This document shows, piece by piece, positions 2,013-61,260 of a stretch of 64,000 nt of DNA. How positions within the stretch are numbered: position 1 is the first letter of the stretch; the number at the start of each line of letters is the position of its first letter. A program made the position numbers and the translations under genes. The DNA is from Candidatus Aphodovivens excrementavium (lineage in GTDB: Bacteria; Actinomycetota; Coriobacteriia; Coriobacteriales; Eggerthellaceae), in the NCBI GenBank assembly GCA_018715935.1, contig DVKR01000029.1, forward strand, positions 124,001 to 188,000, written 5' to 3'. The notes beneath the pieces were generated by a model. That model searched no databases. It saw nothing but the letters and a program-made list of their open reading frames with translations, and was not told the origin of the DNA.

Positions 2013-2034
2013 GTGTACGTAAGTATGCGTACAC
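2013..2034. promoter_or_regulatory. 22-base dyad between divergent genes, candidate Xre operator
   Basis: Perfect seven-base arms GTGTACG and CGTACAC are separated by eight bases. The dyad lies 20 bases upstream of the 64-residue minus-strand gene and 31 bases upstream of the plus-strand Xre gene, a typical place for an autoregulatory operator. Binding is inferred. Confidence 0.55.
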
Positions 2035-2065
2035 CTTAGCTGAAAGTGTCAATAGTCTAGTTCGC

Positions 2066-2281
2066 ATGGGGATATCTGTTCAGACAATCGGCTTGCGGAT
2101 TCGCGCTCTTAGGGAAGAACGAGATATCAGCCTGCGCAAATTCGCGCTTATGACAGGACTCAACAAAAGTCACCTATCGGCCATCGAACGAGGGCGGCTT
2201 GATATGCGCATAAGCTCGTTCGGAAAGATTTTAGATGGACTCGGAGTGTCGGCCGAAGAGTTTTTCAAAGGGCTAGACTAA
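2066..2281 (+). CDS. Xre-family helix-turn-helix regulator (single domain)
   Basis: A 71-residue protein that is essentially one Cro/C1 helix-turn-helix domain: IGLRIRALREERDISLRKFALMT forms helices 1-2, and GLNKSHLSAIERGR is the recognition-helix region with the usual Ser-x-x-Glu-x-Gly spacing. It ends with a short helix around ILDGLGVSAEEFF. No Shine-Dalgarno sequence precedes the ATG at 2066 and no better start is in frame, so the message may be leaderless. It probably controls itself and the divergent 64-residue gene through the dyad at 2013-2034. A toxin-antitoxin pair was considered, but the partner shows no toxin fold. Confidence 0.8.
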   Translation: MGISVQTIGLRIRALREERDISLRKFALMTGLNKSHLSAIERGRLDMRISSFGKILDGLGVSAEEFFKGLD

Positions 2282-2373
2282 CCCCGCTATTGTGCATCAT
2301 TTCGCCTTGCGAGGGGTCTTGGCACAGAAATATTGCAGATGCGCGCATCGCCGTCGGGGCGCTTTGCCGCTCG

Positions 2374-3261: not shown

Positions 3262-3361
3262 TACAGACCCTTCGGAAGCTTGGCGGCCTTTTGGATGCGT
3301 GAGCGGCTCCCTGCGCGATGCTTCTGCTCAAACTTGAAGTATAAAGGAAAATTCGAGCAGG

Positions 3362-3393
3362 TTTACAGAGCTTGTGCGCGGCTGCGCTATACT
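3362..3393 (+). promoter_or_regulatory. Possible serS promoter
   Basis: TATACT at 3388-3393 is a good -10 box about 50 bases before the serS ATG. The best -35 candidates (TTTACA/TTACAG near 3362-3368) give a spacer of 19-20, which is long, so the call is tentative. No T-box specifier or TGG-ACC-type antiterminator was seen in the leader. Confidence 0.35.
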
Positions 3394-3443
3394 GACAAGC
3401 CGTCCGCTGTATGCAGAAGATCCACCGAGTTAGGAGCGCGATT

Positions 3444-12643: not shown

Positions 12644-12717
12644 GGGCGGTTCTAAGTCGCTCGTTCGGCTCTATTCGCTAAACTGTGCAACGGTATAGTA
12701 AGGCGAGAGGGGCATGT

Positions 12718-43305: not shown

Positions 43306-44196
43306 CTATGCCTTCGTGTCGGTGAGCTCGGCTTCGAACCCGAGGTGCTCAAGCGAGGTCAATGCCTGCTGCTTGTGAACCTCACGCAGGGGCGTGCGGC
43401 CGAACTTAGCGTTGTAGATAAAGAAGGTGAACAGGGCGGTGAGCGCCAAGCCAGCCACAGCCAGGGCGAACGAGCCCAGGTGCAGCAGCGCGGTGTCGGT
43501 GTGGCCCAGGAAGAAATCGAGGCCAACGTTGTACATGTTGTAGCCGCCGACGGTGATCATTACCGAGAAACCTTCGCCCGAGAAGTTTGCCAGGGCGGTG
43601 GAGATGCCCGAAGGGGCAAGAATGCAGCCAACCATCCAGGCAGTGATCAGGATGTGCAGGTGATTAACTTTCGGGGTAATGCGCTGAACCACCATGTAAA
43701 GGATCTGGAAAATGGCTGCCAGCAAGCCGCCAACCACGAATGCCCAGACGAACAGCATGCCGCCCTCGGTCTTGGGCACTTCAATGATGTGGCTGTTCAG
43801 ACCGGTGGCGCCGCAGAAAAAGCCAATAGCAATGCAGATGGCGGCAAACACGATGTTGAACCACACGACGAACCACACGCAGTTCCATACGCACTTGCCG
43901 AACTTCTCGTTCGCGGTGGTCCAAGGGCCAACGGCTTTCATGCCTACTGCCATGGCAAAGCCCGAAAACGGCAGAAGCGCTCCGAAGTCGCCCCACTCCT
44001 CAACGTGCTGATAGACGGCGAAGCCGCCCAAAATGCAGCCGATCACGCCCATGGAAACGAGCGTTGCGCCGCCCGTAAAGAATTCCATGGGGGTTCCCGT
44101 AAGGGCCATCTGCCAAAACGACAGGATAGCCTGCGCGATAAGCGCAAACAGGCCGCCAATCAAAAACGCGTACACAATACTCTTTGGCTGTTTCAT
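43306..44196 (-). CDS. SpoVA-like integral membrane protein with internal duplication
   Basis: A 296-residue polytopic protein starting at the ATG at 44196 with GGAGGG upstream; the longer frame begins six codons earlier. Residues 8-90 match the SpoVAC/SpoVAE pattern: YAFLIGGLFALIAQAILSF, VSMGVIGCILGGFAVYQHVEEWGDFGALLPFSGFAMAVG. Residues 150-235 repeat it: FVVGGLLAAIFQILYM, ITAWMVGCILAPSGISTALANFSGEGFSVMITVGGYNMYN. Between and after them are extra helices. SpoVA proteins move dipicolinate in spores, but the host class does not sporulate, so another transported molecule is likely. It is transcribed alone. Confidence 0.72.
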   Translation of the reverse strand: MKQPKSIVYAFLIGGLFALIAQAILSFWQMALTGTPMEFFTGGATLVSMGVIGCILGGFAVYQHVEEWGDFGALLPFSGFAMAVGMKAVGPWTTANEKFGKCVWNCVWFVVWFNIVFAAICIAIGFFCGATGLNSHIIEVPKTEGGMLFVWAFVVGGLLAAIFQILYMVVQRITPKVNHLHILITAWMVGCILAPSGISTALANFSGEGFSVMITVGGYNMYNVGLDFFLGHTDTALLHLGSFALAVAGLALTALFTFFIYNAKFGRTPLREVHKQQALTSLEHLGFEAELTDTKA

Positions 44197-44421
44197 GCAT
44201 CTCCCTCCAGACAATGAAGCACTAGCCGATGAATGGCAGGCTGCCGGCTCTCGTATATGGCGAGGTTTTCGATAAACCGTGACAGCGCTGCCGCGCCGTC
44301 CCTCTTATACGGCGCTTAAGCGACGCTTCATTATAACGGGGTATACTCTATTTTCCCTCCGGAAAAGGAAGTTTTCTTCCGGGTTCGGCGCCCGACGCGC
44401 TTACTTTGCAGCGCCTTCCCC

Positions 44422-45231
44422 CTAAATTGGGAAGGAAAGCCCGTCTGCCGCGGCGCGTACGCGCCCGTCGTATTGCCGAAGGTAGGCTTCAAGCTCCTCA
44501 AGCGTAATGGGCTCGGCGTAATGCATACAGAGGTGTGTAAGAAAGACCGTTCCCGCGTCGAGCGTGAGTCCTTCCTCGATGGCCTGCTGGACGCTGTGGT
44601 GCTGGTCGGTGGGGCACGTCTTCCAGTAGGTAGCGTCTAAGGCAAGGTAATCCACGCCACGCACGCGCTCTGCCGTTTCCTGGGGAAGCGGGCCGGTGTC
44701 GGAAGCGTAGAACAGGCGCGTATGAGGGGTCTCGATGAGGAACCCGTAGGTTCCCGGTGCGTGATGCACGGGCAAGGCGGTGTAGCGTACGCCGTCAAGC
44801 TCAATAGCCTCGTAGGGCATGAGCTCGTGCATATCGAGGCAGTAGGTCATGTAATGGTATTCGTGCGCAATGGTTTCAAGCGTTCCCGGGCTGGCGTAGG
44901 TGGGCAGCGGGCATTTTGTGCGCAGCTGAACCATGTATTCAAGCTCTTCCATACCGCCAATGTGGTCTGAATGGCCGTGGGTTACCAGAAGGCGGTCGAA
45001 GGAAAACACCTTTTCGCGATTGAGCTGGTGGCGAATATCGGGCGGGGTGTCGATAAGGGTGGTGAGTCCGTCTCCTTCCGCGCGTTGGATCATTGCGCCG
45101 CAGTCTCCGCGGCGAGCGCGAGGAAGCTCGCGCGCCTCCTGGCAGGCGGGGCAGTTGCAGAAAAACGCCGGCACGCCGCAGCCGGCTCCGGTGCCCATGA
45201 AGGTAAACGTGTGCGTAAGGTTGTCAGGCAT
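44422..45231 (-). CDS. Metallo-beta-lactamase-fold hydrolase (PhnP-like)
   Basis: A 269-residue enzyme starting at the ATG at 45231; the frame runs on to 45336, but those 35 residues are Arg-rich and unlikely. FMGTGAGCGVPAFFCNCPACQEAR is the PhnP-family N-terminus with a Cys-based structural zinc site. LLVTHGHSDHIGGMEEL is the metal motif, and LPVHHAPGTYGFLIE, YASDTGPLP and TFLTHLCMHY-like segments (VFLTHLCMHYAEP) give the remaining ligands. Relatives are phosphodiesterases acting on cyclic phosphates or nucleotides. The substrate cannot be set here. Confidence 0.88.
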   Translation of the reverse strand: MPDNLTHTFTFMGTGAGCGVPAFFCNCPACQEARELPRARRGDCGAMIQRAEGDGLTTLIDTPPDIRHQLNREKVFSFDRLLVTHGHSDHIGGMEELEYMVQLRTKCPLPTYASPGTLETIAHEYHYMTYCLDMHELMPYEAIELDGVRYTALPVHHAPGTYGFLIETPHTRLFYASDTGPLPQETAERVRGVDYLALDATYWKTCPTDQHHSVQQAIEEGLTLDAGTVFLTHLCMHYAEPITLEELEAYLRQYDGRVRAAADGLSFPI

Positions 45232-45599
45232 GAGAGGACTCTTTCTCTTGGCGGTAGAGCGCGTGTTGCATCTTAATCGCCTACGGGTTGAGTATAGGCG
45301 TAAATAGCGTAGTTCGCTCCCGGTTTTTCGCCGCAAAACGAGGTGAATGGGTGGTTAGCGCTTGACGTAATGGCTATAATCGACTAGCCGACCGCATCTG
45401 GTAAAAAATGCCGGATGCAGGGCTTTGCGTACCGGAACGCGCGGGGGCGTGGTTCGGGAATGGGGGACACAGAGTAAGAGAGCGCCTATATTTGCTCAAC
45501 ACGGGCTAGCTGCGGCAAGCGGTTAGTCTTTTGCGGCGTGTGGCGCACCTCGTACCGAAAGGTTTACCCGTTCATACGATTTAAAGCCTTAAGAGCGAT

Positions 45600-45744: not shown

Positions 45745-48645
45745 ATGGCGGAGATTTCCAAGGAGTCGACCGGTCTCAAGGACCTTGTGTGTCCTGACAT
45801 CGTGTCGACCGAGGTCGATGTCAACGCTCCTGGCGTCGAGATGGTCAAGTCGCTGTGCTATTTCTGCCACGCGAACTGCGGCGTTCTCGCATACGTCAAA
45901 GACGGTGACGTCATCAAAATCAAAGGCGATCCCGATTATTCCAACAAGGGAGGCCTGTGCTGCCGCGGCACCAGCGCGCTGCTGCACGTTAACCATCCTG
46001 CCCGTGTGAACCACGTGCTAAAGCGCGTAGGCGAAAAGGGCGAGGGCAAATGGGAGCAGATCCCATACGATCAGGGCATTCAGGAGGTTGCAGACCGTCT
46101 GAACCAGATCAAGGCGGAAAGTGGCGCCGAGGCAGTTGCCTCTGCTGGCGGCACCACGCGTACCGACGACTTCGCGCGTCGTCGCTTCTTGAACCTGTTC
46201 GGCACGCCGAACGGCTTCCACAACGCACTTCTGTGCTGGATTCCCACGTTCATGACCGAGACGTGCGTGTGCGGTTGGTCTCCGTTCGAGACCGACTTGG
46301 GCGCCGCAAAGAGCCTGATTCTTTGGGGCATGAACCCCGGCGCTTCTTCGCTGCCGAGCATGCGCGGCTACACCGACCTGCAGATGGAGACCGGCCTGAA
46401 GATCATCATGGTTGATCCGCGCTACTCTGAGACTGCTTCCAAGGCCGATCTGTGGCTGCCGCTGCGTCCGGGTTCCGACTCCGCGCTGGCTCTGGCTTTG
46501 CTGCACACCATCATCTTCGAAGGTCTCTACGATTGGGACTTCGTAGAGAAGTGGTGCGACGGCTTCGAAGAGCTGCAGGATCGCATGATCGACTACAGCC
46601 CCGAATGGGCTTCCACCATCACCTGGCTTGATCCCGAGCAGATCCGCAAGGCTGCGCGTCTGTACGCCATGAACAAGCCTGGCTGCATCCAGTGGGGCTG
46701 CACGTGGGACCAGATGGGTCGCGCCTCCACCACTGTTGCCCATGCGCTGACGCTTATCCGCGCTATCTGCGGCAACCTGGACGTTCCCGGTGGCGACGGC
46801 ATGCCCGGTCCTGCCATCAACTACCTCACCGACGAGGAGATGGAGCTCAACGAGCGCCTGCCCGAAGAGCAGAAGGCAAAGCAGATTGGCTCCAACAAGT
46901 TCAAGCTGACCTCTTGGCCTGGCTATCAGCTCATTTCCGACAACGCCAAGCGTACGTGGGGCAAGACCCTGCCGGCAGAGTGGTTCTGCGAGGCACACGG
47001 CCCCAGCGTGTTCAAGGCGATTCTGACGGGCGACCCGTACCAGATTCGCGCGCTCATTGTGAATGCCACCAACCCGATCAACTCCTACGGCGACTCCAAG
47101 ATGACGCTCGCCGCTTTGAAGAAGGTCGAGTTCTTGGTAACCGTTGAGTACTGGATGACCCCCACCGCGCTGTTCTCCGACTACGTGTTCCCGGCAGCCG
47201 GCGCATTGGAGCGTCCTATCATCGTCACCCACTACGGTGCAACCGACTCGGTTATGGGCGGCCGTCGTGCCATCCAGCCGAAGTTCGATCGCCACGACGA
47301 CTTCACCTTCTGGCGCAAGCTCGGCATCGCCTGCGGTCAGTCTGAAGAGGATTGGCCTTGGGAGACCATCGAAGAGGCCTACTCCGCCATCATCGCGCCG
47401 CTGGGTCTGCCCGTTGACGGCTGGGATGGCTTCGTGGACAACTTCCGTATGTACTATCCGCCGCTGCACCAGAGCAAGTTCATTCAGAACAACGGCTTCT
47501 GGACCCCGACGGGCAAGATCGAGTGCAACTCCACCATCATGCGTCAGCTCGGTTACGACGGCATGCCCTCCTACACGGGCACTGCGGAGAACCCCGAGGA
47601 CACGCCGGAGCTGCTGGAAGAGTATCCGATCGTGCTCACCACGGGCGGCGGCTTCATGCCCTACCACCACTCCGAGCACTTCAACATGCCCAACATCCGC
47701 TACCTGTATCCGGATCCGTACTTCTTCATCAACCCGGAACTGGCAGAGAAGCTCAACATCGAGCATGGCGATTGGTGCTGGATCGAGACGCGCCGCGGCC
47801 GCATCAAGATGCGCGCCGATGTGCAGCCCATCGTTGACCCGCGCGTGGTAATGTGCCCGCGTGGCTGGTGGTTCCCCGAGCGCGACGGCTCTGCCGACCT
47901 GAACAACCCGTTCGGCTGCCTGGAGTCCAACGTCAACACGCTGACGTCTGTTGACGACGAAGACTGCGATCCCATGGGCGGCTCCTGGTCTAACCGCGGC
48001 ATGCTGTGCAAGGTCTACAAGTGCGGCGAGTTCGACAAGGAATTCAAGCCCGAGGACGCTCAGTTCTCCATCCCCAGCTCCTCGCCCGAGCCCGGCATTC
48101 ACGTGATGCCCAGCGAGCAGAAGCTGTGCAAGGAAAAGATCCCGTTCGAGATGCCTCAGCCCACCAAGGAAGTTCCCGAGGGCTACTACTGGGTATGGCA
48201 GAACGATGGCCTGTATCAGAAGGGCACCCACTTCAAGCTGGACGATTCCGGCTGGCTGATCGACCCGAAGACCAAGGCATACATCGACGCCTACACCGGT
48301 TGGCGCTACGACGGCAACGAGCAGTGCCTGGTAGACGACGCCACGGGCAAGAAGTACACGATGGACCGCGTCGAGATCGTCTACGTGGCAGGCGTTCGCA
48401 CGTATCCCGGCCAGGCTGCCCCCTACGAGGTTCCTCAGCAGCTCACCTGGGATCAGGAGAAGGGCTACGCTGTTTTGGGCGACAAGCCGTATGTCTACGA
48501 TCCCAATAGCGGTTGGATGCTCGACCCGGCAACGGGCGCGTATCATGACGCCTATTACGGCTGGCTCTATGACGCCGCAGGCAACTGCCTGGTAGACGAG
48601 GCTACGGGTAACCGCTACGACATGTCGTATCAGCCTCTTCAGTAA
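45745..48645 (+). CDS. Molybdopterin oxidoreductase with C-terminal aromatic octapeptide repeats
   Basis: A 966-residue DMSO-reductase-superfamily catalytic subunit; GGGAAGG precedes the ATG. No Tat signal is present. C38-x2-C41-x3-C45 and Cys72/73 bind one [4Fe-4S] cluster. Cys164 in LLCWIP aligns with a Cys of the second Moco enzyme and is the candidate Mo/W ligand. SLILWGMNPGAS, DPRYSETASKADLWLPLRPGSD and VNATNPINSYGD are the bis-pterin-binding segments; GFMPYHHSEHFN and WWFPERDG belong to the C-terminal barrel. Residues 829-876 and 916-963 are two blocks of octapeptide repeats not usual in the family. Acts with the ferredoxin and NrfD subunits that follow; substrate unknown. Confidence 0.93.
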   Translation: MAEISKESTGLKDLVCPDIVSTEVDVNAPGVEMVKSLCYFCHANCGVLAYVKDGDVIKIKGDPDYSNKGGLCCRGTSALLHVNHPARVNHVLKRVGEKGEGKWEQIPYDQGIQEVADRLNQIKAESGAEAVASAGGTTRTDDFARRRFLNLFGTPNGFHNALLCWIPTFMTETCVCGWSPFETDLGAAKSLILWGMNPGASSLPSMRGYTDLQMETGLKIIMVDPRYSETASKADLWLPLRPGSDSALALALLHTIIFEGLYDWDFVEKWCDGFEELQDRMIDYSPEWASTITWLDPEQIRKAARLYAMNKPGCIQWGCTWDQMGRASTTVAHALTLIRAICGNLDVPGGDGMPGPAINYLTDEEMELNERLPEEQKAKQIGSNKFKLTSWPGYQLISDNAKRTWGKTLPAEWFCEAHGPSVFKAILTGDPYQIRALIVNATNPINSYGDSKMTLAALKKVEFLVTVEYWMTPTALFSDYVFPAAGALERPIIVTHYGATDSVMGGRRAIQPKFDRHDDFTFWRKLGIACGQSEEDWPWETIEEAYSAIIAPLGLPVDGWDGFVDNFRMYYPPLHQSKFIQNNGFWTPTGKIECNSTIMRQLGYDGMPSYTGTAENPEDTPELLEEYPIVLTTGGGFMPYHHSEHFNMPNIRYLYPDPYFFINPELAEKLNIEHGDWCWIETRRGRIKMRADVQPIVDPRVVMCPRGWWFPERDGSADLNNPFGCLESNVNTLTSVDDEDCDPMGGSWSNRGMLCKVYKCGEFDKEFKPEDAQFSIPSSSPEPGIHVMPSEQKLCKEKIPFEMPQPTKEVPEGYYWVWQNDGLYQKGTHFKLDDSGWLIDPKTKAYIDAYTGWRYDGNEQCLVDDATGKKYTMDRVEIVYVAGVRTYPGQAAPYEVPQQLTWDQEKGYAVLGDKPYVYDPNSGWMLDPATGAYHDAYYGWLYDAAGNCLVDEATGNRYDMSYQPLQ
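48229..48633 (+). repeat. Two blocks of encoded octapeptide repeats
   Basis: Each block has six units of eight residues with Asp at position 4 and usually Gly at position 8. Units of block 1 (48229-48372) include WLIDPKTK, AYIDAYTG and CLVDDATG; units of block 2 (48490-48633) include WMLDPATG, AYHDAYYG and CLVDEATG. The blocks are paralogous unit by unit. Confidence 0.85.
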
Positions 48646-48675
48646 GTAAGCATCGAGTAGGAGAAAGGATAGGAA

Positions 48676-49254
48676 ATGACCCGTTACGTTATGGTCATCG
48701 ACCAGCGTCGTTGCATCGGCTGCCACTCCTGCACGGTTGCTTGCCGTGTGTGGAACAAGCTTCCGCTTGACATCATTTATAACCCGGTCGTCTCCGAAGG
48801 AACGCAGGGCACCTGGCCCAACGTTCATCGCAACTGGACGCCGCTTCTGTGCATGCATTGCGAGAATCCCGAGTGCGTGCCGTGCTGCCCCTCCGGCGCA
48901 AGCCAGCAGGACGACGACGGCACCGTTTGGGTGGATCCCAAGAAGTGCCTGTCGTGCAAGGTGTGCGTGAACGCATGCCCCTACGGCATGCGCGACGCTT
49001 CTCACATCGAGAACCGCATGCACCGCTTCGTGCGCAAGTGCACGTTCTGCCGCGACAAGCGTCAGCTTGATCCGGACGCGCAGCCGTATTGCGTAGAGAC
49101 GTGCCACCAGAAGGCGCGTATCTTCGGCGATTTGGACGATCCGAACAGCGAGGTATCCAAGCTCATCGGCTCGGTTAAGACCGACCGCATCTTCACGGAG
49201 TTTGGTACCGAGCCGCAGATTTATTACATTCCGTGCTTGGGAGGTCGGGCATAA
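48676..49254 (+). CDS. Four-cluster [4Fe-4S] electron-transfer subunit (DmsB/PhsB type)
   Basis: A 192-residue ferredoxin-like subunit expected to wire the Moco subunit to the membrane anchor. Four cysteine groups are seen: CIGCHSCTVAC, CMHCENPECVPCCP, CLSCKVCVNACPYG and CTFCRDKRQ ... CVETCHQKARIFGDLDD. These are the full set for four [4Fe-4S] clusters, and FGDLDDPNSEVSKL is the typical DmsB tail. GGATAGGAA precedes the ATG. It is 30 bases after the Moco gene and its stop overlaps the NrfD start. Confidence 0.96.
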   Translation: MTRYVMVIDQRRCIGCHSCTVACRVWNKLPLDIIYNPVVSEGTQGTWPNVHRNWTPLLCMHCENPECVPCCPSGASQQDDDGTVWVDPKKCLSCKVCVNACPYGMRDASHIENRMHRFVRKCTFCRDKRQLDPDAQPYCVETCHQKARIFGDLDDPNSEVSKLIGSVKTDRIFTEFGTEPQIYYIPCLGGRA

Positions 49255-50234
49255 TGAAGCATCATTATTGGGAACCGCCTATCGCCCTGTACCTGTTCCT
49301 GGGCGGTTTGGCTGGCGGCATTCTGTTTCTGTCCGCCATTTTCAACAGCTTTGTGATTCCCGGGTATGGCGAGATCTTCGCCTTCCCGGTACTCATCTCG
49401 CTGATTTGCGTTGCCATCGGCTGCGTGTTCTTGGTCATCGACCTTGGTCAGCCTGGCGTGTTCTGGCGCGTGTGGACAACCGCAACGTCCATCATCAAAT
49501 GGGGCGCAACGTTTTTGGTTATCGCTGCGGTGTTTGCGCTGCTGTACCTGGTGGCATACCTCGATCAGGCATGGCCGATCTTCTCAGGCCTTTCGCAGCT
49601 GCTGCTTCCTGCAGCCGACTTCTTCCTGATCGTGGCAGGCTTCTTTGGTCTGTGCATCATGATGTACACCGGCATCATGCTTTCCACGCTGAAGGCGCAT
49701 GCGTTTTGGGCAACCCCGGCTCTGCCGGTGCTGTTCACCATTTCGGCAATCTCCACCGGCTGCGCAGCAATCGTGCTGAGCATCGGCGGTTGGCCGGCGC
49801 AGATTACGCTGGAAAGCCTGCTGGCTGCAGCGCTGGTGCTTGAGATCCTGCACATCGTGGACATCGTGCTGGTTATCGCTGAGCTCATCGTTTTGCTTAC
49901 CATGGTTCTGTCGTTTGCAGGCGCCGGCAACGTTACCGCCAAGAAGGCGGCCATGCGTTGGATTAAGGGCTCCTATGCGCTTCCCTTCTGGGTAGGCATG
50001 GTGTTCATCGGCTTGCTGGTTCCGCTGATGATGTACATCGGTGGCGGCCACTCCGCTGCTTCGACGATTGTTGCCCCCGTGCTGGTTTTGTGCGGCGGCT
50101 GCCTGCTTCGCTTCATGGTTGTTAACACCGACGACCGTGCCGACATCCCGGGCGAGATCCGCTACTACAATCGTGTGGCAAAGCCCGATGCCGAATTCGT
50201 GAAGAAGTGGGAATACGGCAAAAACATCTTCTAA
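49254..50234 (+). CDS. NrfD/PsrC-type membrane anchor subunit
   Basis: A 326-residue integral membrane protein with eight to nine helices, starting at the ATG that overlaps the previous stop, with GGGAGG upstream. PIALYLFLGGLAGGILFLSAIFNSF and VFLVIDLGQPGVFWRVW match the NrfD/PsrC N-terminus, including the Gly-rich first helix and the D-L-G-x-P quinone-side motif. It exchanges electrons with menaquinone. A hairpin with a GAGCTGACGCT tail and a terminator follow, so this is the third and last gene of the unit. Confidence 0.94.
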   Translation: MKHHYWEPPIALYLFLGGLAGGILFLSAIFNSFVIPGYGEIFAFPVLISLICVAIGCVFLVIDLGQPGVFWRVWTTATSIIKWGATFLVIAAVFALLYLVAYLDQAWPIFSGLSQLLLPAADFFLIVAGFFGLCIMMYTGIMLSTLKAHAFWATPALPVLFTISAISTGCAAIVLSIGGWPAQITLESLLAAALVLEILHIVDIVLVIAELIVLLTMVLSFAGAGNVTAKKAAMRWIKGSYALPFWVGMVFIGLLVPLMMYIGGGHSAASTIVAPVLVLCGGCLLRFMVVNTDDRADIPGEIRYYNRVAKPDAEFVKKWEYGKNIF

Positions 50235-50241
50235 GAGGCTT

Positions 50242-50275
50242 GTCGATCCGCCGCTCGACGAAACGAGCTGACGCT
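50242..50275 (+). repeat. Post-stop hairpin with conserved tail, weaker copy
   Basis: GTCGA (50242-50246) pairs with TCGAC (50255-50259), followed by GAGCTGACGCT, close to the GAGCCGACGCT tail at 7953 and 41085. A similar tail without a clear stem is at 54650. Confidence 0.45.
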
Positions 50276-50349
50276 ACGAACGCGATAGGATGGTGTATTG
50301 CCTGCCGCTCGTAAGACGGTAGGCGAAGACGATCGACTTTGCTTGACTC

Positions 50350-50380
50350 GGGGGTGCGGCCTTGGCCGTGCCCCCGTTTG
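50350..50380 (+). terminator. Terminator after the NrfD-type gene
   Basis: GGGGGTGCGGC and GCCGTGCCCCC pair around CTTG with two wobble pairs, followed by GTTTGGTT. It separates the first Moco unit from the second. Confidence 0.7.
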
Positions 50381-50480
50381 GTTAAGGCGACGGTCTTGAC
50401 AGCGCTTGCAAGCGGGGCGCCTGCAAGCGCTGCTGTTGTGTCAGGACGGTGGCCTTAGGCAAACAGACGAGGGAGGATCT

Positions 50481-51467
50481 ATGACCGGATATGTGTACGA
50501 CGACGCGCTGACAGGCAGCCGCGTCACATGCGGGTATCCTGCGCTGACGGCGTGGGTTGACTCAGAGGGCGCCGCCGATGAGGGCAGCGGCTCGCATGCG
50601 GCAACGTCGCTGTTTTTTCCGGGCTGTTCGTTTTTAAACTATTCTCTGCCGCTGGTTCAGGCAGTATACGATCTGCTGAAAGGCGCAGAGCGCGTCAGCG
50701 GCATCTCCCTGGTATGCTGCGGAAAGATTCTCGACTTCGAGCCTGACGGCAAAGCGGTGCGCGCTGCTCATGAGGTGCAGATGCGCGAACACATTGTCGA
50801 AGCAGGCGTCAAGCGTATTGTCACGGCATGTCCAAATTGCGTGAAGGCGCTGCGTTCGCTGCTGGCGGCAGACGAGCGCACGAGCGAGGTTGAAGTGGTG
50901 CCGTTGTCGGTTGAGCTTGCTGAGATGGGGTATCGCATCGACGCAGAGGTGGCGCGCAAGATGGTTGCTGCGGCAGCGCCCGAGAGCGGCGCTGCATCGG
51001 ACGAAGAGCTCCGTCTTGCCCCTCACGACTCGTGTCCCGATCGCGATACAGGCGAGTTCGCCGACAGCGTGCGCCGGCTGCTGCCCGACGGCGCTGTGTG
51101 CGAAACGAAGCACAACCGCCATAAGTCGTTCTGCTGCGGTAACCTGCTACGTGCTGCCGGAAAGCCCGATCGCGCTTTGGAGCAGTCGCGCCGTCATGGC
51201 CAAGAGGCTCTCGAAGCGCGGGCGGATGCCCTCGTTACGGTGTGCATGAGTTGCGCTTTCCTGTTGTCTAAACAGCAGAAGGACGTACCGGTATTCCATT
51301 ACCTCGAGCTTTTGTATGACTGGCGCATCGACTGGGATGGCATGCCGCCCTACATGACGCTGCGCTTCTTGTTCGACGAGCCGTCGCAAACGGAAGAGTC
51401 GCGCAGGACGTTTGTGAGCCTCGATTCCGACAAGACTGCCCAAGAGTCAGATGGAGCTGCGCAATAA
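50481..51467 (+). CDS. CCG-domain Fe-S protein paired with the second Moco enzyme
   Basis: A 328-residue cytoplasmic protein; GGGAGGA precedes the ATG at 50481. Two HdrB/GlpC-like cysteine-rich domains are visible: FFPGCSFLNYSLPLVQ ... LVCCGKILDFEP with TACPNCVKAL, and PHDSCPDRDTGEF ... SFCCGNLLRAAG with TVCMSCAFLL. The N-terminal 2x[4Fe-4S] part present in the 12718 homologue is missing. The stop overlaps the start of the next gene by one base, so it is most likely the direct electron donor or acceptor of that Moco enzyme. Confidence 0.87.
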   Translation: MTGYVYDDALTGSRVTCGYPALTAWVDSEGAADEGSGSHAATSLFFPGCSFLNYSLPLVQAVYDLLKGAERVSGISLVCCGKILDFEPDGKAVRAAHEVQMREHIVEAGVKRIVTACPNCVKALRSLLAADERTSEVEVVPLSVELAEMGYRIDAEVARKMVAAAAPESGAASDEELRLAPHDSCPDRDTGEFADSVRRLLPDGAVCETKHNRHKSFCCGNLLRAAGKPDRALEQSRRHGQEALEARADALVTVCMSCAFLLSKQQKDVPVFHYLELLYDWRIDWDGMPPYMTLRFLFDEPSQTEESRRTFVSLDSDKTAQESDGAAQ

Positions 51468-53701
51468 TGCAGGAGATAAAACCGACTAACTGCCATTACT
51501 GCGGCTACTGCTGCGCCTTTCTTGCTACGGTGGAAGACGGCCGTGTGGTCGACTTGAGCCCTGACCCTTCGCGCTATCCTTATGACGACCGTATTTTGGC
51601 GGGCTGCCGCCGCTGGCGTATGAACCTTGACGCCCTCGACGGTGCCGACCGCGTGAACTATCCTTTGCGTCGAGTGGGAGAGCGCGGTGCGAATCAGTGG
51701 GAGCGCGTGAGCTGGGACGAGGCGCTCGACGATATTGTGTGCAGCTTACGCGAACTTGCCCAGCAGCATGGGCCTGAAACGTTGGCAAGCGCCATAGGCG
51801 GCCCGCATGCGTCATTTTGGCCGTTGCACCGTTTCATGAATCTATTCGGCAGCCCAAACAACATGGGTATTGGCCAAATTTGCTGGAATCCTCGCATATG
51901 GATGGATGCCCTTACGTTTGGCTGGACGGTTGAGGCCGATATTACGCCGGGGCTTACCGAGTGCCTGTTCATATGGGGAACGAATCCGGCGCAATCCGAC
52001 AACTCTGCCTTTTGGCGTGCGATCATACAGTTTTCTAAGTCGGGCGCAGCGTTGGTGGTAATTGATCCGCGTCGAACGCAGGTGGCAGCGTTGGCAGACA
52101 TTTGGTTGCCCGTGCGTCCGGGCACCGACTGCACGCTGGCGTTGGCGTTCATGCATGTCATTATCGAAGAAAACCTGATTGACCGCGCGTTCGTTGACGA
52201 ATGGTGTCACGGGTTTGACGAGCTTGCCGAGCATGTTGAAAAATACACGCCCGCCTATGCGGCGCAGGTGTGCGGCGTGCCGGAGAGCGACATACGAAAG
52301 GCCGCGCGCCTGTTCGGCGAGGCGCAAGCTGCCGCACTGGTGTCTGGCAGAGGCATCGATCAAGTGGGAGTTAACGTTGCCCCAACACATCGCGCGATCT
52401 GCTGTTTGCGCGCAATCACCGGCAATGTAGACAAGCAGGGCGCCTGCGTTTTGGCCGAGGCGAGCGATTTCGTTTCTGAGGTGGTCATGGAAATGACCGA
52501 TGCGCTTGCTCCCGAGCATCGTGTACGCTGTCTGAACACGAGGCGCACGCCGCTTCAAAGCTATGAGGGCTACGAGAAGGCGCGTGCCATCACCGAAAAG
52601 CTGGGCAGGCGTCTCCCCGAGCGTTACCTTACGTCAGCCGCGCCTGACTTGGTGCTGCGCGCAATGGAGACGGGGGAGCCATACCCGGTGCGCGCGCTGA
52701 TAGTGAATGCGACGAACCCTCTTCTAACCTATGCGGATACGCATCGTGTTTTCAAGGCGTTCATGGGGCTTGATCTCATAGTGGTGCTAGACTACTATAT
52801 GACACCAACCGCGAGCATTGCCGACTATGTGCTTCCGATTGCAGGCGCCATCGAGCGCCCGATCTTCCAAGTGCACGGCGGCGTTGCCAACAACGGATAT
52901 GGCGGGCCGGCTGCGGTTGCGCCCTATTACGAGCGTCGGACCGATTACGAGGTGTTTCGCGAGCTGGGCATTCGCTTGGGTCAAGAACAGGCGTGGCCTG
53001 AGGAAACGCTGGAAGAGGCGTTTGCAGCACAACTGGCCCCTACCGGCATGGATTGGGAGACGTATTGCCGCATCGGGCTGTACTACCAGCCGCCTGCGTA
53101 CCAGAAGCACCTGAAGCCGGGGTCTGACGGGGCTCCTCTCGGGTTTGCCACCACCACGGGCAAAATTGAGCTAGCCAGCGAGTTTTTGCCTCAAGTGGGC
53201 GGTACGCGCTTGCCTGAGCCGGGCGGGCACGTTTCGCTGTGCTCACCTGAGCTGGTAGCCGAAGCCGAAGCGCAAGGGGGCGCGCATATTCGCATGATCA
53301 CCGGCTCGCGCAAGCAGCCCTACAATGCGTCGATGTATTTCAACAACCCGGCGTTTCGCGAAAAATCGCCCGTTCCCGTGGCGGAAATGAGCGAAGACAC
53401 CGCACGTAATTTGGGGCTTGAGCCAGGATGCACCGTAGAGTTGGCAACCGATCAGGGCAGTGCCCGCTTCGTGTTGGCGATTGCGAAGATGCGAGACGAC
53501 CTGGTGAACGTAGACTACGGGTGGTGGCATCCGGAATGGACGCCCGGTGCACCCGAGTTTGGTGGAATGTGGGAATCGAATGTGAACTGCCTGACCACCT
53601 GCACGCTGGCAGAGCCTATGATTGGAACGTGGAGCTACAATGACATCGACTGCGTAATCAGGCGTGTAGACGAGCCTATAAGCTGGCAAAACGGCCGGTA
53701 A
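51467..53701 (+). CDS. Second molybdopterin oxidoreductase (acetylene hydratase/transhydroxylase-like lineage)
   Basis: A 744-residue Moco or W-pterin enzyme without a Tat signal. Cys9-x2-Cys12-x3-Cys16 and Cys47 form the [4Fe-4S] site. Cys139 in QICWNPR is the likely metal ligand. CLFIWGTNPAQSDN, DPRRTQVAALADIWLPVRPGTD and VNATNPLLTYADT bind the pterins. YNASMYFNNPAFR and WWHPEWTPGAPEF are in the C-terminal barrel. It shares this plan with the 45745 enzyme but lacks the octapeptide extension. No membrane subunit is in its unit, and the CCG protein upstream is its probable redox partner. The substrate is unknown; both redox and hydratase-type chemistry are possible. Confidence 0.92.
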   Translation: MQEIKPTNCHYCGYCCAFLATVEDGRVVDLSPDPSRYPYDDRILAGCRRWRMNLDALDGADRVNYPLRRVGERGANQWERVSWDEALDDIVCSLRELAQQHGPETLASAIGGPHASFWPLHRFMNLFGSPNNMGIGQICWNPRIWMDALTFGWTVEADITPGLTECLFIWGTNPAQSDNSAFWRAIIQFSKSGAALVVIDPRRTQVAALADIWLPVRPGTDCTLALAFMHVIIEENLIDRAFVDEWCHGFDELAEHVEKYTPAYAAQVCGVPESDIRKAARLFGEAQAAALVSGRGIDQVGVNVAPTHRAICCLRAITGNVDKQGACVLAEASDFVSEVVMEMTDALAPEHRVRCLNTRRTPLQSYEGYEKARAITEKLGRRLPERYLTSAAPDLVLRAMETGEPYPVRALIVNATNPLLTYADTHRVFKAFMGLDLIVVLDYYMTPTASIADYVLPIAGAIERPIFQVHGGVANNGYGGPAAVAPYYERRTDYEVFRELGIRLGQEQAWPEETLEEAFAAQLAPTGMDWETYCRIGLYYQPPAYQKHLKPGSDGAPLGFATTTGKIELASEFLPQVGGTRLPEPGGHVSLCSPELVAEAEAQGGAHIRMITGSRKQPYNASMYFNNPAFREKSPVPVAEMSEDTARNLGLEPGCTVELATDQGSARFVLAIAKMRDDLVNVDYGWWHPEWTPGAPEFGGMWESNVNCLTTCTLAEPMIGTWSYNDIDCVIRRVDEPISWQNGR

Positions 53702-53757
53702 CGTATAAGGTAACCTTGATGCGACCTACGTTGCATGTCAGATGAAAAGGAGAAAGC

Positions 53758-54624
53758 ATGGCAGAAAAGAAGCAAGCGCTGCTGCTGTTCAGTAAACCGC
53801 CCGTTTCGGGGAAAGTGAAGACGCGCCTGACGATCGAGCATGGCGGGTTTATGACGGCTGACGAGGCCGCCGATTTTTACAAGCGCTGCTTGTACGACGT
53901 GTCTGAGTTGTGCATGCATGCCCTTATCGAGATGCAGCGCATTAACGATGCGGCTCGGGCTGCCGATCCGTCAGTCGATGCCATCACCTACGACTTCTTC
54001 GTTTCAACTCCTGTCGCCCAGTTCGACATCATGAAGGAAACCTATGACGAAATCGGCCCGTGGCCGATGGAGATCCACTACCTCACCGACAAGGGATCGA
54101 CGTTCGACGACCACTTCGACTATGCGTTCAAGCAGATCTTCGATCTGGGCTATAAGCATATCGTGTCGGTGGGAGGGGACATTCCCACGCTTCCGAAATC
54201 TCATATCAAGCAGGCGTTCGAGTGGCTTGATTATTTCCAGAGCCTGGGAACGCCAGGCTTCGTTCAGGCTCCCTGCCAGGAGTGCGGAACCTCTTTGGTT
54301 GGATTTAGCTACAACACCCCCATCAACCATCAGGGCATCTATTACAACATGACGGGTCGCCCCGCACTGGACGGCTATGTTGAGAAGCTGAAGGAGAAAA
54401 ACATTCCTTCGGCCTATTTCTCTCCTGTTGCTGACATCGACGAGCGCACCGACTTGGCGCACGCCATCTCCTGCATGCGCGCGATCGCCGAGGCGGGCAA
54501 ATACCAGCCCGATATGTTCATCCCCCAGCGCGTGCTTGACTGGGTAGACTGGTACGGCATCACCGTGTCTACCCCGCCCAACGAAGAGCACGACCCGCGC
54601 CAGTATCTGGACGAAGAGGAGTAG
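53758..54624 (+). CDS. DUF2064 (TIGR04282-like) nucleotidyl/glycosyltransferase-fold protein
   Basis: A 288-residue GT-A-fold protein with an AAGGAGAAAG site. LLLFSKPPVSGKVKTRLTIEHG is the DUF2064 signature, equivalent to the nucleotide-binding loop of MobA/CofC-like transferases. IVSVGGDIPTLP is the metal-binding (S)D-x-P region. Members next to radical SAM genes are assigned to arsenosugar-type glycosyl transfer in some bacteria. Here the gene lies between a Moco enzyme and a radical SAM gene. The C-terminal 70 residues (FIPQRVLDWVDWYGI) extend beyond the usual family length. Donor and acceptor are unknown. Confidence 0.82.
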   Translation: MAEKKQALLLFSKPPVSGKVKTRLTIEHGGFMTADEAADFYKRCLYDVSELCMHALIEMQRINDAARAADPSVDAITYDFFVSTPVAQFDIMKETYDEIGPWPMEIHYLTDKGSTFDDHFDYAFKQIFDLGYKHIVSVGGDIPTLPKSHIKQAFEWLDYFQSLGTPGFVQAPCQECGTSLVGFSYNTPINHQGIYYNMTGRPALDGYVEKLKEKNIPSAYFSPVADIDERTDLAHAISCMRAIAEAGKYQPDMFIPQRVLDWVDWYGITVSTPPNEEHDPRQYLDEEE

Positions 54625-54766
54625 TTCTGCGGGTCTGCCGGCATGCGGACTCGCTGACGCTACGGGCGCAAGAGCGCTCCTCTCTGATGCTACGAACGAC
54701 CAGTGAGGGTAAGGGCTCCGAGGGGACGCATCGTGTGGTGCATATCGCTTCGCGTCCGAAGAACCT

Positions 54767-56161
54767 GTGAGAAAGAGTGTGATTTTGAAAGAATCGAATG
54801 ACTCCGTGAAGGTGGCGCACGTTGCGCAAGAGGGAGACGTGCAGCAAACGAGCGGCTACCGGCATCTGCACAACACGATCGGGCTGTGCCCCGAGTGCCT
54901 GCGCGAGCTGAAGGCGGACGTATATGTCGACGATGAGGGAACCGTGTGGATGGAGCGAATCTGCCCCGATCACGGCCCGCTCACCACGCGCGTGTGGCCT
55001 GACGCCGACCACTACCAGTGGCTCCGATCCGAGGCCTTTCCCAAGACCAAGCCGCAAAACACCATTCCGGCAGGCGAGCCGTGCCCGTTTGGCTGCGGAA
55101 CGTGCGCGCGTCACGAGCGTCGCGGCACGCTGCTTGAGATCGAAGTGACCAAAAGCTGCAACTTGCATTGCCCGGTGTGCTTCATGAGCTCCGAGAACGG
55201 TGACGACGACCCCACGATGGACGAGATCGACGCCATGTACGACGTCATTGCCAATGCGGTGGGAACCGACGGCGCCGTGCAGCTGACCGGCGGCGAGCCG
55301 ACGTGCCGCAAGGACCTGCCCGAGATCATCTACCGCGGGCGCGAAAAGGGCTTCTGGGGCATTGAGGTCAACACAAACGGCCTGGTCATCGCGTCGCGTC
55401 CGGGGTATCTGGAAGATCTGGTGGCAGCGGGCCTCACGGGCGTGTACCTGTCGTTCGACGGCTTGACCGGCGACGTGTATGAGGGAACGTGCGGCCGCGA
55501 CATCCTCGACATCAAGCTGCGCGTTATCGAGCGCTGTCGCGAGGCCGGCATTCAGTGCGTGCTGTCGGTTGCGGTAGTTGCGGGCCTTAACGACAATCAG
55601 CTGGGCGATCTGCTCCGTTTCAGCCTTGAAAACTCCGACGTGGTGGCTGGCCTGGCTTTGCAGCCGGCGTTCGTATCCGGCCGTTTTGAGGCGGAGCGCG
55701 CCATGCAGTTTACGGCGGGCGACGTCATCTTCAAGCTGGCAGAACAGTCCGACGGGCTTATTGAGCCGCGCGACATCTGGCCGCTTGGATGCTCCAACCC
55801 GCTTTGCGACACCGGCGTGTTCTTGGTTCGCACCGACGAAGCAAGCCACCCGAGTGGATTCGTTCCCGCAACGCAGTTGCTTACCCCCGAAGAATATCGC
55901 GAAGGGTACAGCCCCGACAGCCCGCAGGGCTCTGTCTTTCTGGACATCCTCGCCAAGCGCGGCGTAAAGGTAAACGACGGCCTTTCTGTCATCATCATGA
56001 ACTATATGGACGCCTATTCGATGGACGTTCAGCGTCTGCGCGAGTGCTCGATGATGGTGACCGTGCCCGACGGCCGTGCCATCCCGTTCTGCTCGTACCA
56101 TCTGACCGACGCAGACGGCCGCCGCGTCTATCCTCCCTGGTGCAAGGAAGAGCTGAGATAG
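54767..56161 (+). CDS. Radical SAM enzyme of the MJ0619/Tes-like type
   Basis: About 464 residues. GTG at 54767 or 54779 may start the protein; GAGAAAG favours 54779. Cys131-x3-Cys135-x2-Cys138 in KSCNLHCPVCF is the radical SAM cluster. N-terminal CPEC (41-44) with ICPDHG, and CPFGCGTC (106-113), match the auxiliary metal sites of the MJ0619 and tetraether-synthase families. VQLTGGEPTCRKDLPEII and YLSFDGLTG are barrel motifs, and FCSYHLTD near the end is a further Cys site. MJ0619 methylates pterins; Tes couples lipid chains. In the 142 bases upstream, CTCGCTGACGCTACG at 54650 is a degenerate repeat tail. Confidence 0.85.
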   Translation: MRKSVILKESNDSVKVAHVAQEGDVQQTSGYRHLHNTIGLCPECLRELKADVYVDDEGTVWMERICPDHGPLTTRVWPDADHYQWLRSEAFPKTKPQNTIPAGEPCPFGCGTCARHERRGTLLEIEVTKSCNLHCPVCFMSSENGDDDPTMDEIDAMYDVIANAVGTDGAVQLTGGEPTCRKDLPEIIYRGREKGFWGIEVNTNGLVIASRPGYLEDLVAAGLTGVYLSFDGLTGDVYEGTCGRDILDIKLRVIERCREAGIQCVLSVAVVAGLNDNQLGDLLRFSLENSDVVAGLALQPAFVSGRFEAERAMQFTAGDVIFKLAEQSDGLIEPRDIWPLGCSNPLCDTGVFLVRTDEASHPSGFVPATQLLTPEEYREGYSPDSPQGSVFLDILAKRGVKVNDGLSVIIMNYMDAYSMDVQRLRECSMMVTVPDGRAIPFCSYHLTDADGRRVYPPWCKEELR

Positions 56162-56177
56162 ATTTTTGGAGGGGGTG

Positions 56178-56291
56178 CGAAGGGACAGCGGGAAAGCTTC
56201 GTGCTCAAACAGTCCTGAGCTCGCGCGAAACGCCCATCGGGCGTTTCGGCTCGTGCGGAACTGCGCGCGAAGCCTCCCCGCTGTCCCTTCG
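56178..56291. repeat. 114-base near-perfect intergenic hairpin
   Basis: The outer stem is 15 bp (CGAAGGGACAGCGGG with CCCGCTGTCCCTTCG), then GCTTCG/CGAAGC, then a bulged CAGT/ACTG stem, and an apical 10-bp stem (CGAAACGCCC-ATC-GGGCGTTTCG, 56226-56248). It begins 16 bases after the radical SAM stop. No U-run follows. Confidence 0.8.
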
Positions 56292-56431
56292 ATCGTAAGC
56301 TATCTCGGTCAGAGATGCGGTCTTTCGCGCTTTGCGCGAATTGTAGGGAGGACTAACGTTCCTGTTGCCCTCTGCTATAAGATATAGTCTACTAAAGGTA
56401 GCAGGCATTTTGGTCAAGACGAGAGGTAGAA

Positions 56432-57406
56432 ATGGCTGACTATAGGATTCTTCACGATGCGGATCGATGCGTTAAGTGCGGCTTGTGCGTGGCGTTTTGC
56501 CCGTGCGACGTGCTTGAGATTGGCAAGGAGGGCTACCCGGTTGTGGTGGACGCCGAGCCGTGTGTTGGCTGCATGACCTGCTCGGGCAACTGCCCGCAGC
56601 GCGCGCTTACGGTGGAGGCAACCGGCGATGCCGTGTACGATCCCTTTGCCGATGAGCCTCGCGCGGAACCGCTGGACAGCAAGCGTTGTTCGGAGTTCGC
56701 GGAATATCAGCGCGTCATCATGGAGAAGCTTGGGCTTCGCTGGCAGCCTGTTGCCGTGGGTCTCATTGAGGCGGACGAGCTTTTGCCCGATGTTCCCATG
56801 CCTTCGGAAAATCTTCGTTTCTGCCAAGCTTTGATGGCGGCGCGGCGCGGCGCGAGCGTTCTCATGCCGCCGAGCAAGCATTCCTGCCCCGATGGCACGT
56901 CCATCTTTGGCATGACCGGCGTGCCCGAAAAGCTGGCTACCGGCGAGATCTACGTGCTGTTCCACAAGCTCGACACTGCCGAAGCCGCCGCACAGATGGT
57001 GGCAGAGCGCCCCACGCTGCCGCCGCATAGCCGTCGCGCCACCTATGTTGCGCCGCTCAACAAAACGGTGCGCGAACCCGAGGTGGTGGTTTTCACCGGC
57101 ACGCCTGAGCAAATGATGTGGTTGTGCATGTCGATGAGCTACTACACCGGCCACCGCTTCGACTTCCATGCGTCGGGATACAACTCGATGTGCGTTGAGG
57201 CGGTGCTCATTCCGCTGCGCGACGACGAGCCCAATATCACTTTCGGGTGCTACGGTTGCCGCGCTGCCAGCGACATCGGGGAGGACATGATGTTCATGGG
57301 TGTGCCCACCAATCGCCTTCCAACCATCGCGAAGGGTCTCACCGAGCTGGCGAAGAAGGCCATTCCGCACTCGCGCATGAAGATCTACCTTCCGCCTATA
57401 ATGTAA
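56432..57406 (+). CDS. Ferredoxin-DUF169 fusion protein
   Basis: A 324-residue protein with a GAGAGG site. Residues 8-70 hold two [4Fe-4S] motifs (CVKCGLCVAFCP and CVGCMTCSGNCP). Residues 90-320 form a DUF169 domain (WQPVAVGLIEADEL, RFCQALMAARRGASVLM, CPDGTSIFGM, FGCYGCRAASDIG). DUF169 proteins occur beside methanogenesis and Moco genes and are thought to bind redox partners or cofactors, without a proven role. Between the long hairpin and this gene lies CTGCTA ... TAGCAG, a possible operator around a TATAAG box. It ends the locus at a bidirectional terminator. Confidence 0.85.
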   Translation: MADYRILHDADRCVKCGLCVAFCPCDVLEIGKEGYPVVVDAEPCVGCMTCSGNCPQRALTVEATGDAVYDPFADEPRAEPLDSKRCSEFAEYQRVIMEKLGLRWQPVAVGLIEADELLPDVPMPSENLRFCQALMAARRGASVLMPPSKHSCPDGTSIFGMTGVPEKLATGEIYVLFHKLDTAEAAAQMVAERPTLPPHSRRATYVAPLNKTVREPEVVVFTGTPEQMMWLCMSMSYYTGHRFDFHASGYNSMCVEAVLIPLRDDEPNITFGCYGCRAASDIGEDMMFMGVPTNRLPTIAKGLTELAKKAIPHSRMKIYLPPIM

Positions 57407-57513: not shown

Positions 57514-57945
57514 CTAGCGAATCTTTTTGCCCATAGGCTGCGGGTTGCATTCGTCAACAAGCGTGCAGACACGGCAGTCTTCGGCAACGTCGAGGCATAC
57601 GTCTTCCCAGGGAATGGCAGCGTATCCAAGCTTTTCGTAGAATCCCACCGACGCACCGCGCGCGACAAAGCGAAGCTCGCCATAGCGCTCAAGCGCTTCA
57701 TCCATAAGTGCGCGGCCAACTCCGTATCCGCGCCAGGTGGGATAGGTAACCACGGGGTTGACATGGGCAATGCCTTCCGGGCTGAACGCGAGGCGAAGAT
57801 AGCCCACGATCTCGCCTTCGCTGTTTACGGCAACCCGAATGTTTTCTATCGAGGGAAAGGCGTCCATGCCTTCTTGGTAGTTGTAGGCGTTCAAGACGGA
57901 AAGATCGTTTTCCTGTGCGTCGCGAATAGTGAACAAGTCAGCCAT
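57514..57945 (-). CDS. GNAT-family N-acetyltransferase
   Basis: A 143-residue acetyl-CoA-dependent transferase. IRDAQENDLSVLNAYNY is the N-terminal strand-helix, VGYLRLAFSPEGIAHVNPVVTYPTWRGYGVGRALMDEALE contains motif A with the R/Q-x-x-G-x-G/A loop (RGYGVG), and FVARGASVGFYEKLGYA is motif B. The last 25 residues have three Cys (CLDVAEDCRVCTLVDEC), possibly a metal site. The substrate is unknown. It lies downstream of a PadR gene on the same strand. Confidence 0.9.
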   Translation of the reverse strand: MADLFTIRDAQENDLSVLNAYNYQEGMDAFPSIENIRVAVNSEGEIVGYLRLAFSPEGIAHVNPVVTYPTWRGYGVGRALMDEALERYGELRFVARGASVGFYEKLGYAAIPWEDVCLDVAEDCRVCTLVDECNPQPMGKKIR

Positions 57946-57995: not shown

Positions 57996-58430
57996 CTACT
58001 CGTGCGAGCAGATGGGGGCATCGGGCAGATCGATGCCAAGCGCCTGAGCTGCTTGCCCACGCAGCTCTTCGAGTGTCAGCTCGTAGCAGGCCAGTGCATC
58101 GATCCAGCGACGTAGGCAGTGGCGTCCCTTGTCGGTAAGCGTGAAGAGGCGCTTAGCGGAGCCCTCTTCGGGCGTCTCCCATTCCGACGTTACGAGCTCG
58201 GCCTCTTCCATGCGCTTCAGTGCGCGATAGATGCCGGTGGCGTCGGGCTTCTTCCCGCCGAACATGGGCGAGTGAGCCGCCTGCTGCACGATAATGTAGC
58301 CATGCATGGGTTTGTCTGAGGCGGCAAGCAGCGTGAGGATGGTTGGCTGGGAAAGGCGGTTCAGAGATTTTCCCAGCTCGGCGCATTCTTTCAGGTCTTC
58401 ATCAGATTTCGGATGACAAGAGCTCCACAT
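57996..58430 (-). CDS. PadR-family transcriptional regulator
   Basis: A 144-residue regulator starting at the ATG at 58430 (GGGGGGA site); the frame to 58466 adds 12 poor residues. Residues 28-110 are the PadR winged helix (LSQPTILTLLAASDKPMHGYIIVQQ, KPDATGIYRALKRMEEAELVTSEWE, RLFTLTDKGRHCLRRW). A short C-terminal helix (LTLEELRGQAAQALGI) dimerises it. The N-terminus with CHPKSDEDLKECAELG is an extension seen in some anaerobe PadRs. Likely targets are itself and the GNAT gene 50 bases downstream. Confidence 0.9.
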   Translation of the reverse strand: MWSSCHPKSDEDLKECAELGKSLNRLSQPTILTLLAASDKPMHGYIIVQQAAHSPMFGGKKPDATGIYRALKRMEEAELVTSEWETPEEGSAKRLFTLTDKGRHCLRRWIDALACYELTLEELRGQAAQALGIDLPDAPICSHE

Positions 58431-58520
58431 GTCAGTCCCCCCTTTTTTCTCGCGGACGCGCCCCACGTCCGACGAAAGCGGTGAGCGACGCGAAGAATTG
58501 GTCGAATAGCACGCTGCCCA

Positions 58521-61155: not shown

Positions 61156-61211
61156 ACCCTATGGGGTCTCCTAGGCTCCTTTTGTCCGTATCTTGTAGAT
61201 GCCGTAATGCC

Positions 61212-61239
61212 TTGCCTGCGCCGAAAAAGGCGCAGGCAA
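61212..61239 (+). promoter_or_regulatory. Leader hairpin 21 bases before the transhydroxylase-like start
   Basis: TTGCCTGCGCC and GGCGCAGGCAA form an 11-bp perfect stem with loop GAAAAA. The ribosome site AGAGGAGA lies just downstream and stays free. It could stabilise the message or be a leftover terminator without a U-run. Confidence 0.6.
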
Positions 61240-61260
61240 CGTCGGACGAGAGGAGAAGTT

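Follow-up and report, generated by a model that had tools for sequence, protein, structure and literature searches.

A molybdoenzyme locus of Candidatus Aphodovivens excrementavium with strictly linked radical SAM and DUF2064 genes, a candidate cofactor-maturation cassette

Several described systems contain close relatives of the proteins discussed here. The radical S-adenosylmethionine (SAM) enzyme MJ0619 is the tetraether lipid synthase (Tes) GDGT-MAS (PMC9433317), a finding that supersedes the pterin methylation assigned to it in the initial annotation of the present locus. Acetylene hydratase is the nearest relative of the catechol dehydroxylases (PMC7028382), and the TrsS/DVU_1551–1559 system of molybdenum (Mo) hydroxylases was followed here through the NCBIfam models NF045646, NF045663 and NF045665–NF045669. 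They bear on a cluster at positions 45745–57406 of a 64,000-nucleotide stretch (the window) of Candidatus Aphodovivens excrementavium (Coriobacteriia, Eggerthellaceae; GCA_018715935.1, contig DVKR01000029.1, positions 124,001–188,000). As initially annotated, its plus strand carries eight intact open reading frames of the expected families at the expected positions, here named A to H, encoding two molybdenum cofactor (Moco) enzymes (A and E), a ferredoxin and an NrfD subunit (B and C), a CCG-domain protein (D), a DUF2064 protein (F), a radical SAM enzyme (G) and a ferredoxin–DUF169 fusion (H). E, F and G behave as an inseparable triad with A–B–C as its usual partner, a precise link of a Tes-superfamily radical SAM enzyme and a DUF2064 nucleotidyltransferase to particular molybdoenzymes in Coriobacteriia of gut, rumen and termite gut and in Desulfuromonadia. 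Joint inheritance in these two distant anaerobe groups suggests that A and E need a specially made or modified, so far undescribed molybdenum cofactor.

A query of GTDB genomes with G returned 42 loci, many on short contigs, in Gordonibacter, Ellagibacter, Adlercreutzia sp. ZJ176, Paraeggerthella, metagenome-assembled genomes (MAGs) from gut and rumen, termite-gut-type Coriobacteriales MAGs and one Desulfuromonas. Cultured carriers include Gordonibacter sp. 28C, Paraeggerthella hongkongensis and Ellagibacter isourolithinifaciens. F directly precedes G in all of them except one locus cut by a contig end and that of the Desulfuromonas, and E and A are present in 31/42 and 21/42, figures to be read with the short contigs in mind. 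Gene order is maintained in many genera, so the arrangement is not a product of chance. Among 61 Coriobacteriia genomes, 25 have a strong match to G. E and F occur in all of these and also in G055, which is 59% complete and has only part of G; A occurs in 24, and the other 35 have none of the genes (Fisher about 3e-16, overstated by kinship among genomes). Matches to G among 244 Desulfuromonadia genomes are of two kinds, scoring 386–470 bits in 14 genomes and no more than 250 bits in about 30; exactly the same 14 and no others also hold E (>700 bits) and F (E ≤ 1e-20), accompanied in 11 of these by A (>980 bits). The chance of drawing the same 14 of 244, 1/C(244,14) = 5e-23, is again overstated since the genomes are related. 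Co-occurrence holds where the genes lie on separate contigs (genomes G038, G057, G049 and G061) or 67 kb apart (G172), and presence in two phyla, scattered within families, is difficult to explain by descent alone. Rare linkage of the radical SAM and DUF2064 genes to molybdoenzyme genes had been named at the outset as the result that would speak against a connection; F and G in fact accompany E without exception, and A nearly so, in both phyla, and neighbourhood statistics strongly confirm the linkage even across contigs.

The association is also selective. Apart from G055, no Coriobacteriia genome without a strong G has a strong match to A or E, including three (G018, G024 and G033) with about 70–100 candidate genes of the dimethyl sulfoxide (DMSO) reductase family. 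A MobA-like gene is present in 59/61 Coriobacteriia genomes with or without F (below cut-off, as in 13/14 control genomes), which rejects the idea that F stands in for an absent housekeeping MobA. As the genomes richest in DMSO reductase family genes lack F and G, a general role of the pair in maturing bis-molybdopterin guanine dinucleotide (bis-MGD) is likewise rejected, and both observations indicate that F and G are specific.

What the cassette serves is indicated by its surroundings in Desulfuromonadia, where moaA, moaC, moaE, modE or moeA-like genes lie beside or interleaved with it in 12/14 genomes. In the fullest example, locus L127, a single strand reads M-A-B-C-T-G-E-F-H-V-N-moaA-moaE-moaC-modE-moeA-like, where M is a hydrolase of metallo-β-lactamase (MBL) fold, N a GNAT acetyltransferase, V a flavin reductase and T a counterpart of D; its MoaA scores 344 bits (cut-off 284), and the ModE and MoaE models are also matched. 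Elsewhere moaC follows E (L125, L126, L128, L130 and L131), moaA and modE follow H (L136 and L137), moaA-V-M-N diverges from a sigma-54 regulator and A-B-C-G (L068 and L132–L134), or a moaC-mobB gene precedes T-E-F-H (L123). Ten unrelated control loci held no moa genes. Of all the evidence, this linkage argues most strongly for a cassette that serves Moco rather than lipids. Of the two hypotheses first advanced, tailoring of the pterin by the radical SAM and DUF2064 proteins is thereby favoured, with room left for an ordinary-Moco supply or a separate coenzyme, and the other, manufacture of a substrate or lipid, loses its lipid half and keeps its substrate half as a rival of low probability.

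The radical SAM enzyme G (54767–56161; PF04055 with an HMPTM zinc ribbon, PF23545) contains a rubredoxin-type site, two auxiliary clusters and a SAM cluster. Every ligand of the four metal sites known from GDGT-MAS is invariant (C41, C44, C66, H69; C106, C110, C113, H116; C131, C135, C138; C347, C427, C442, M411), including the Met-capped C-terminal auxiliary cluster, and the AlphaFold2 model (pLDDT 87) shares the GDGT-MAS fold, with 7tom as best structural match (TM 0.79; 7tol was also matched). These resemblances are what could be said for a Tes-type lipid-modifying enzyme with an incidental Moco linkage, a very improbable reading. Identity to GDGT-MAS is 28–29%, the segment that includes the lipid pocket (346–407) is 60 aa long where Tes has 118 aa, and Tyr459, reported to be strictly conserved in Tes, aligns with V431. 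The profile scores also lie below the cut-offs (Tes NF045702, 300 bits against 450; TrsS NF045646, the better match, 346 against 490), G co-occurs strictly with E and F in a Moco neighbourhood, and no lipid genes were recognised in the clusters. The lipid synthase reading was rejected on motif, segment length and neighbourhood. In a phylogenetic tree, the longest branch (1.39, support 1.0) sets the TrsS-like sequences apart. A search of the gaps for a precursor of a ribosomally synthesised and post-translationally modified peptide yielded no small frame conserved past very near relatives.

For F (53758–54624, 288 aa; PF09837, 7.7e-12) the AlphaFold2 model (pLDDT 94.3) retrieves through Foldseek first the DUF2064 structure 3cgx and then the CofC/FbiD guanylyltransferases. 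Residues K13, K21-T22-R23, D141, P143, D226 and D228 are kept in 35/35 sequences, and with them those of the KTR, GGDxP and DxD motifs, so that fold and catalytic residues are those of the CofC type and of DUF2064 proteins (TIGR04282). Judged by model and motifs, F probably functions as a nucleotidyl- or glycosyltransferase whose acceptor is phosphorylated. It differs from TIGR04282 members in score (59 bits against a cut-off of 134) and in a C-terminal extension, and, unlike CofC and DUF2064 systems, it is partnered by E and G rather than by F420 or arsenosugar genes. A literature search found no paper naming DUF2064 or describing this cluster, and papers on DUF169 assign no function; the benzene 'Magic' cluster (AEM 2026) is unrelated to the locus. 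A second, solitary DUF2064 paralogue (L073:9227-10090; G000:C21:85235-86086), about 35% identical to F, lies left of the window; such a gene occurs in 18/25 G-positive and 1/36 other Coriobacteriia genomes, and several Desulfuromonadia carriers also have two DUF2064 genes.

The molybdoenzymes A (45745–48645, 966 aa; PF00384/PF01568/PF04879/PF17780) and E (51467–53701, 744 aa), initially annotated as related, share 33% identity over 749 aa and are by this measure paralogues. When the other molybdoenzymes from these loci are included in a tree, each is monophyletic across both phyla (support 1.0 for A, 0.97 for E). Acetylene hydratase (PDB 2e7z) is the best structural match for both (2.5e-108 and 1e-98), with the Mo/W-ligating and [4Fe-4S] cysteines aligned; C38, C41, C45, C72 and C164-W165 are invariant among A orthologues, as are C9, C12, C16, C47 and C139-W140 in 41 orthologues of E. 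No Tat signal was seen in A or E, so both should face the cytoplasm. Acetylene hydratase carries Ile after the metal-binding Cys where A and E have Trp, and since A has His42 and E has Gly13 in place of its catalytic Asp13, acetylene hydration by either enzyme is unlikely and was rejected as their activity. Nearest characterised homologue (acetylene hydratase, Ahy), Cys ligand and [4Fe-4S] motif place them in the acetylene hydratase/catechol dehydroxylase clade, in a comparison in which acetylene hydratase stood for the clade, and the obligate F/G cassette sets them apart from both enzyme types. Acetylene-hydratase-like genes have been reported in a paper on a Coriobacteriales acetylenotroph.

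Given the kinship of acetylene hydratase with the catechol dehydroxylases, a hydroxylated aromatic is a fair guess, by analogy, at the substrate of A and E, and it fits the aromatic-acid and lactate/oxalate-family transporters that flank some clusters. The same observations feed a catabolic alternative, in which G, F, M and N would make or convert the substrate or product of A and E (e.g., a hydroxylated aromatic acid) and the Moco genes would be there for supply. Aromatic-acid/H+ symporter and lactate/oxalate-family major facilitator superfamily genes adjoin A or G in L125, L128 and L132, and sigma-54 regulators stand beside the A-B-C-G operon in L068 and L132–L134. However, it would be costly for a catabolic step to spend a nucleotidyltransferase and a radical SAM enzyme on each turnover, the transporters vary among loci while E-F-G is constant, and the conserved set is devoid of CoA ligase and ring-cleavage genes, all of which make this alternative improbable.

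A different parallel is offered by the TrsS system. One such locus (L140) encodes a MoeA-like protein, an aldehyde oxidoreductase, a dicluster protein, the DVU1556 methyltransferase, the DVU1555 protein, TrsS, a CoA ligase, an XdhC-like factor and the DVU1551 NTP transferase, all above the curated cut-offs except the MoeA-like protein, which is 38% identical to that of L127. Thus a radical SAM enzyme of the same superfamily, a nucleotidyltransferase, a dicluster Fe-S relative, a MoeA-like protein and a molybdoenzyme share one cluster, as they do here, and within the Tes superfamily there are two branches that each have a molybdoenzyme and a nucleotidyltransferase as partners. There are differences as well, as the TrsS molybdoenzyme is an aldehyde oxidoreductase of the XDH family, its NTP transferase is MocA-like and not DUF2064, and it brings a methyltransferase, a CoA ligase and an XdhC-like factor. 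No XDH-family Mo hydroxylase, DVU1556 methyltransferase or DVU1551 NTP transferase was found in the cluster of the window, nor A, E, F or H in four sampled TrsS-like loci. The NCBIfam names of TrsS and diclust_near_Sec tie these relatives to selenium, and in L137 genes for the selenium cofactor protein YqeC and a MocA-like NTP transferase (897–2270) immediately precede the cluster; insertion of selenium into Moco, as proposed for selenium-dependent Mo hydroxylases, was considered on this account. It is scarcely credible here, and refuted for the Coriobacteriia lineage, as SelD is absent in 14/25 G-positive genomes and shows no enrichment (11/25 vs 23/36 in the others, p = 0.19).

By analogy with the TrsS/DVU_1551 system, the most likely function of the cassette would be tailoring of the pyranopterin for E and A, an explanation that is plausible but unproven. 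Stated in full, and held tentatively as the leading candidate, it describes an anaerobic molybdoenzyme system equipped with a cofactor-maturation cassette dedicated to it, in which G and F alter the pyranopterin or an attached ligand for E and usually A. The two enzymes would be cytoplasm-facing oxidoreductases of the acetylene hydratase/catechol dehydroxylase clade acting on a hydroxylated organic substrate, exchanging electrons with the quinone pool via A-B-C or with a CCG/ferredoxin carrier (D or T, H). G, reduced by H, may generate a 5'-deoxyadenosyl radical that alters a carbon of the pyranopterin or its small ligand; F might then place a nucleotide (or sugar) on a phosphate of the product, with M and N processing precursors. 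The finished cofactor would serve E and usually A but not the many other DMSO-reductase-family enzymes of the cell. A bolder version, possible but doubtful, holds that the product of G and F is a third kind of pyranopterin cofactor, a Moco modified at a carbon and nucleotidylated anew, for E and A only, with the TrsS system making a sister variant for Mo hydroxylases and tailoring of Moco by Tes-like enzymes being general but so far unrecognised. If tailoring is true, it would add to cofactor biosynthesis a branch not yet described, provide two large families of unknown function with a role, and could account for the failed heterologous expression of such molybdoenzymes.

Several observations weigh against tailoring. 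In the DMSO reductase family, MGD is bound by DPR and (G)TD/SD residues. A keeps these without exception and E almost without exception, so that at least part of the cofactor looks, to judge from these motifs, like ordinary MGD. The D. gigas crystal structure of the aldehyde oxidoreductase of TrsS-type loci shows ordinary molybdopterin cytosine dinucleotide. No moa genes were seen beside the locus in Coriobacteriia, and where Moco genes do cluster with the cassette this may reflect supply alone, as molybdoenzyme genes often have them alongside; a dedicated supply of ordinary Moco would look identical at the gene level, yet does not by itself explain F and G. The transporters beside some clusters leave room for a substrate pathway. 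Finally, structure comparison puts F closer to CofC than to MobA/MocA, where the initial annotation had named MobA and CofC together. This result, the canonical-looking bis-MGD-binding residues of A and E, and the likeness of an MBL, GNAT, flavin reductase and nucleotidyltransferase set to coenzyme pathways are the grounds for supposing that Moco is standard and that F, G, M and N supply E with a separate small coenzyme or activated cosubstrate, with F activating a phospho-acid as CofC does and G building or attaching the core. Such a coenzyme, which would be equally new, is rather unlikely, since clustering with moaA, moaC, moaE, modE, mobB and moeA-like genes indicates Moco and no CofD/CofE-like ligase or transferase was found in the clusters.

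The remaining genes complete the picture. B (48676–49254) is a four-cluster ferredoxin subunit of NrfC/PsrB type (PF13247), 98–53% identical among partners of A orthologues in both phyla, and C (about 49254–50234) an NrfD quinone-interacting membrane subunit (PF03916, 1.5e-32). D (50481–51467; PF02754) matches NF045663 (diclust_near_Sec) at 80 bits; its place in other lineages is taken by T, a longer HdrD/GlpC-like protein matching the same model (147 bits in L127). H (56432–57406), two [4Fe-4S] sites of a ferredoxin fused to DUF169 (PF02596, 1e-53), lies next to F/G in the majority of Coriobacteriia loci as well as in L123, L127, L136 and L137, and is a probable electron donor to G or E. The locus was initially called compact, and its arrangement is indeed conserved, although the unit is wider than stated. 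On the minus strand, M (44422–45336; PhnP/PqqB type, TIGR03307 115 bits and NF038231 114.6, both below cut-offs) adjoins A as a conserved neighbour and in Desulfuromonadia groups with V and moaA; N (57514–57945), opposite in strand to A–H, is the next gene past H in most relatives; and a PadR-type regulator, P (57996–58466), is a further conserved neighbour, as V is in relatives. A itself extends into two C-terminal OCRE-type aromatic repeats (PF17780, residues about 820–950), of a type best known from eukaryotic RNA-binding proteins, both being kept in only part of the Coriobacteriia orthologues and neither in A of Desulfuromonadia (740–760 aa).

In three Desulfuromonadia loci (L135–L137) a far more distant molybdoenzyme (26–27%) replaces the A-B module, E, G, N and M being kept, and F and H too where the contig extends. 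D and E of Gordonibacter pamelaeae 7-10-1-b (L036) appear broken solely from runs of N in the record. L125 carries beside F and V, at 480–3599, a 1039-aa fusion of a radical SAM and an ArsM-type methyltransferase, the latter part also matching the DVU_1556 family. Within the window, M is flanked at 43306–44214 by a SpoVAC/SpoVAEB-family membrane protein (PF03862, 5.9e-18), a further DMSO-reductase-family gene follows a LysR gene right of the locus (61207–63963), and a T-related CCG/Fe-S protein (32%, 199 bits) is encoded far from it at 12685–13920.

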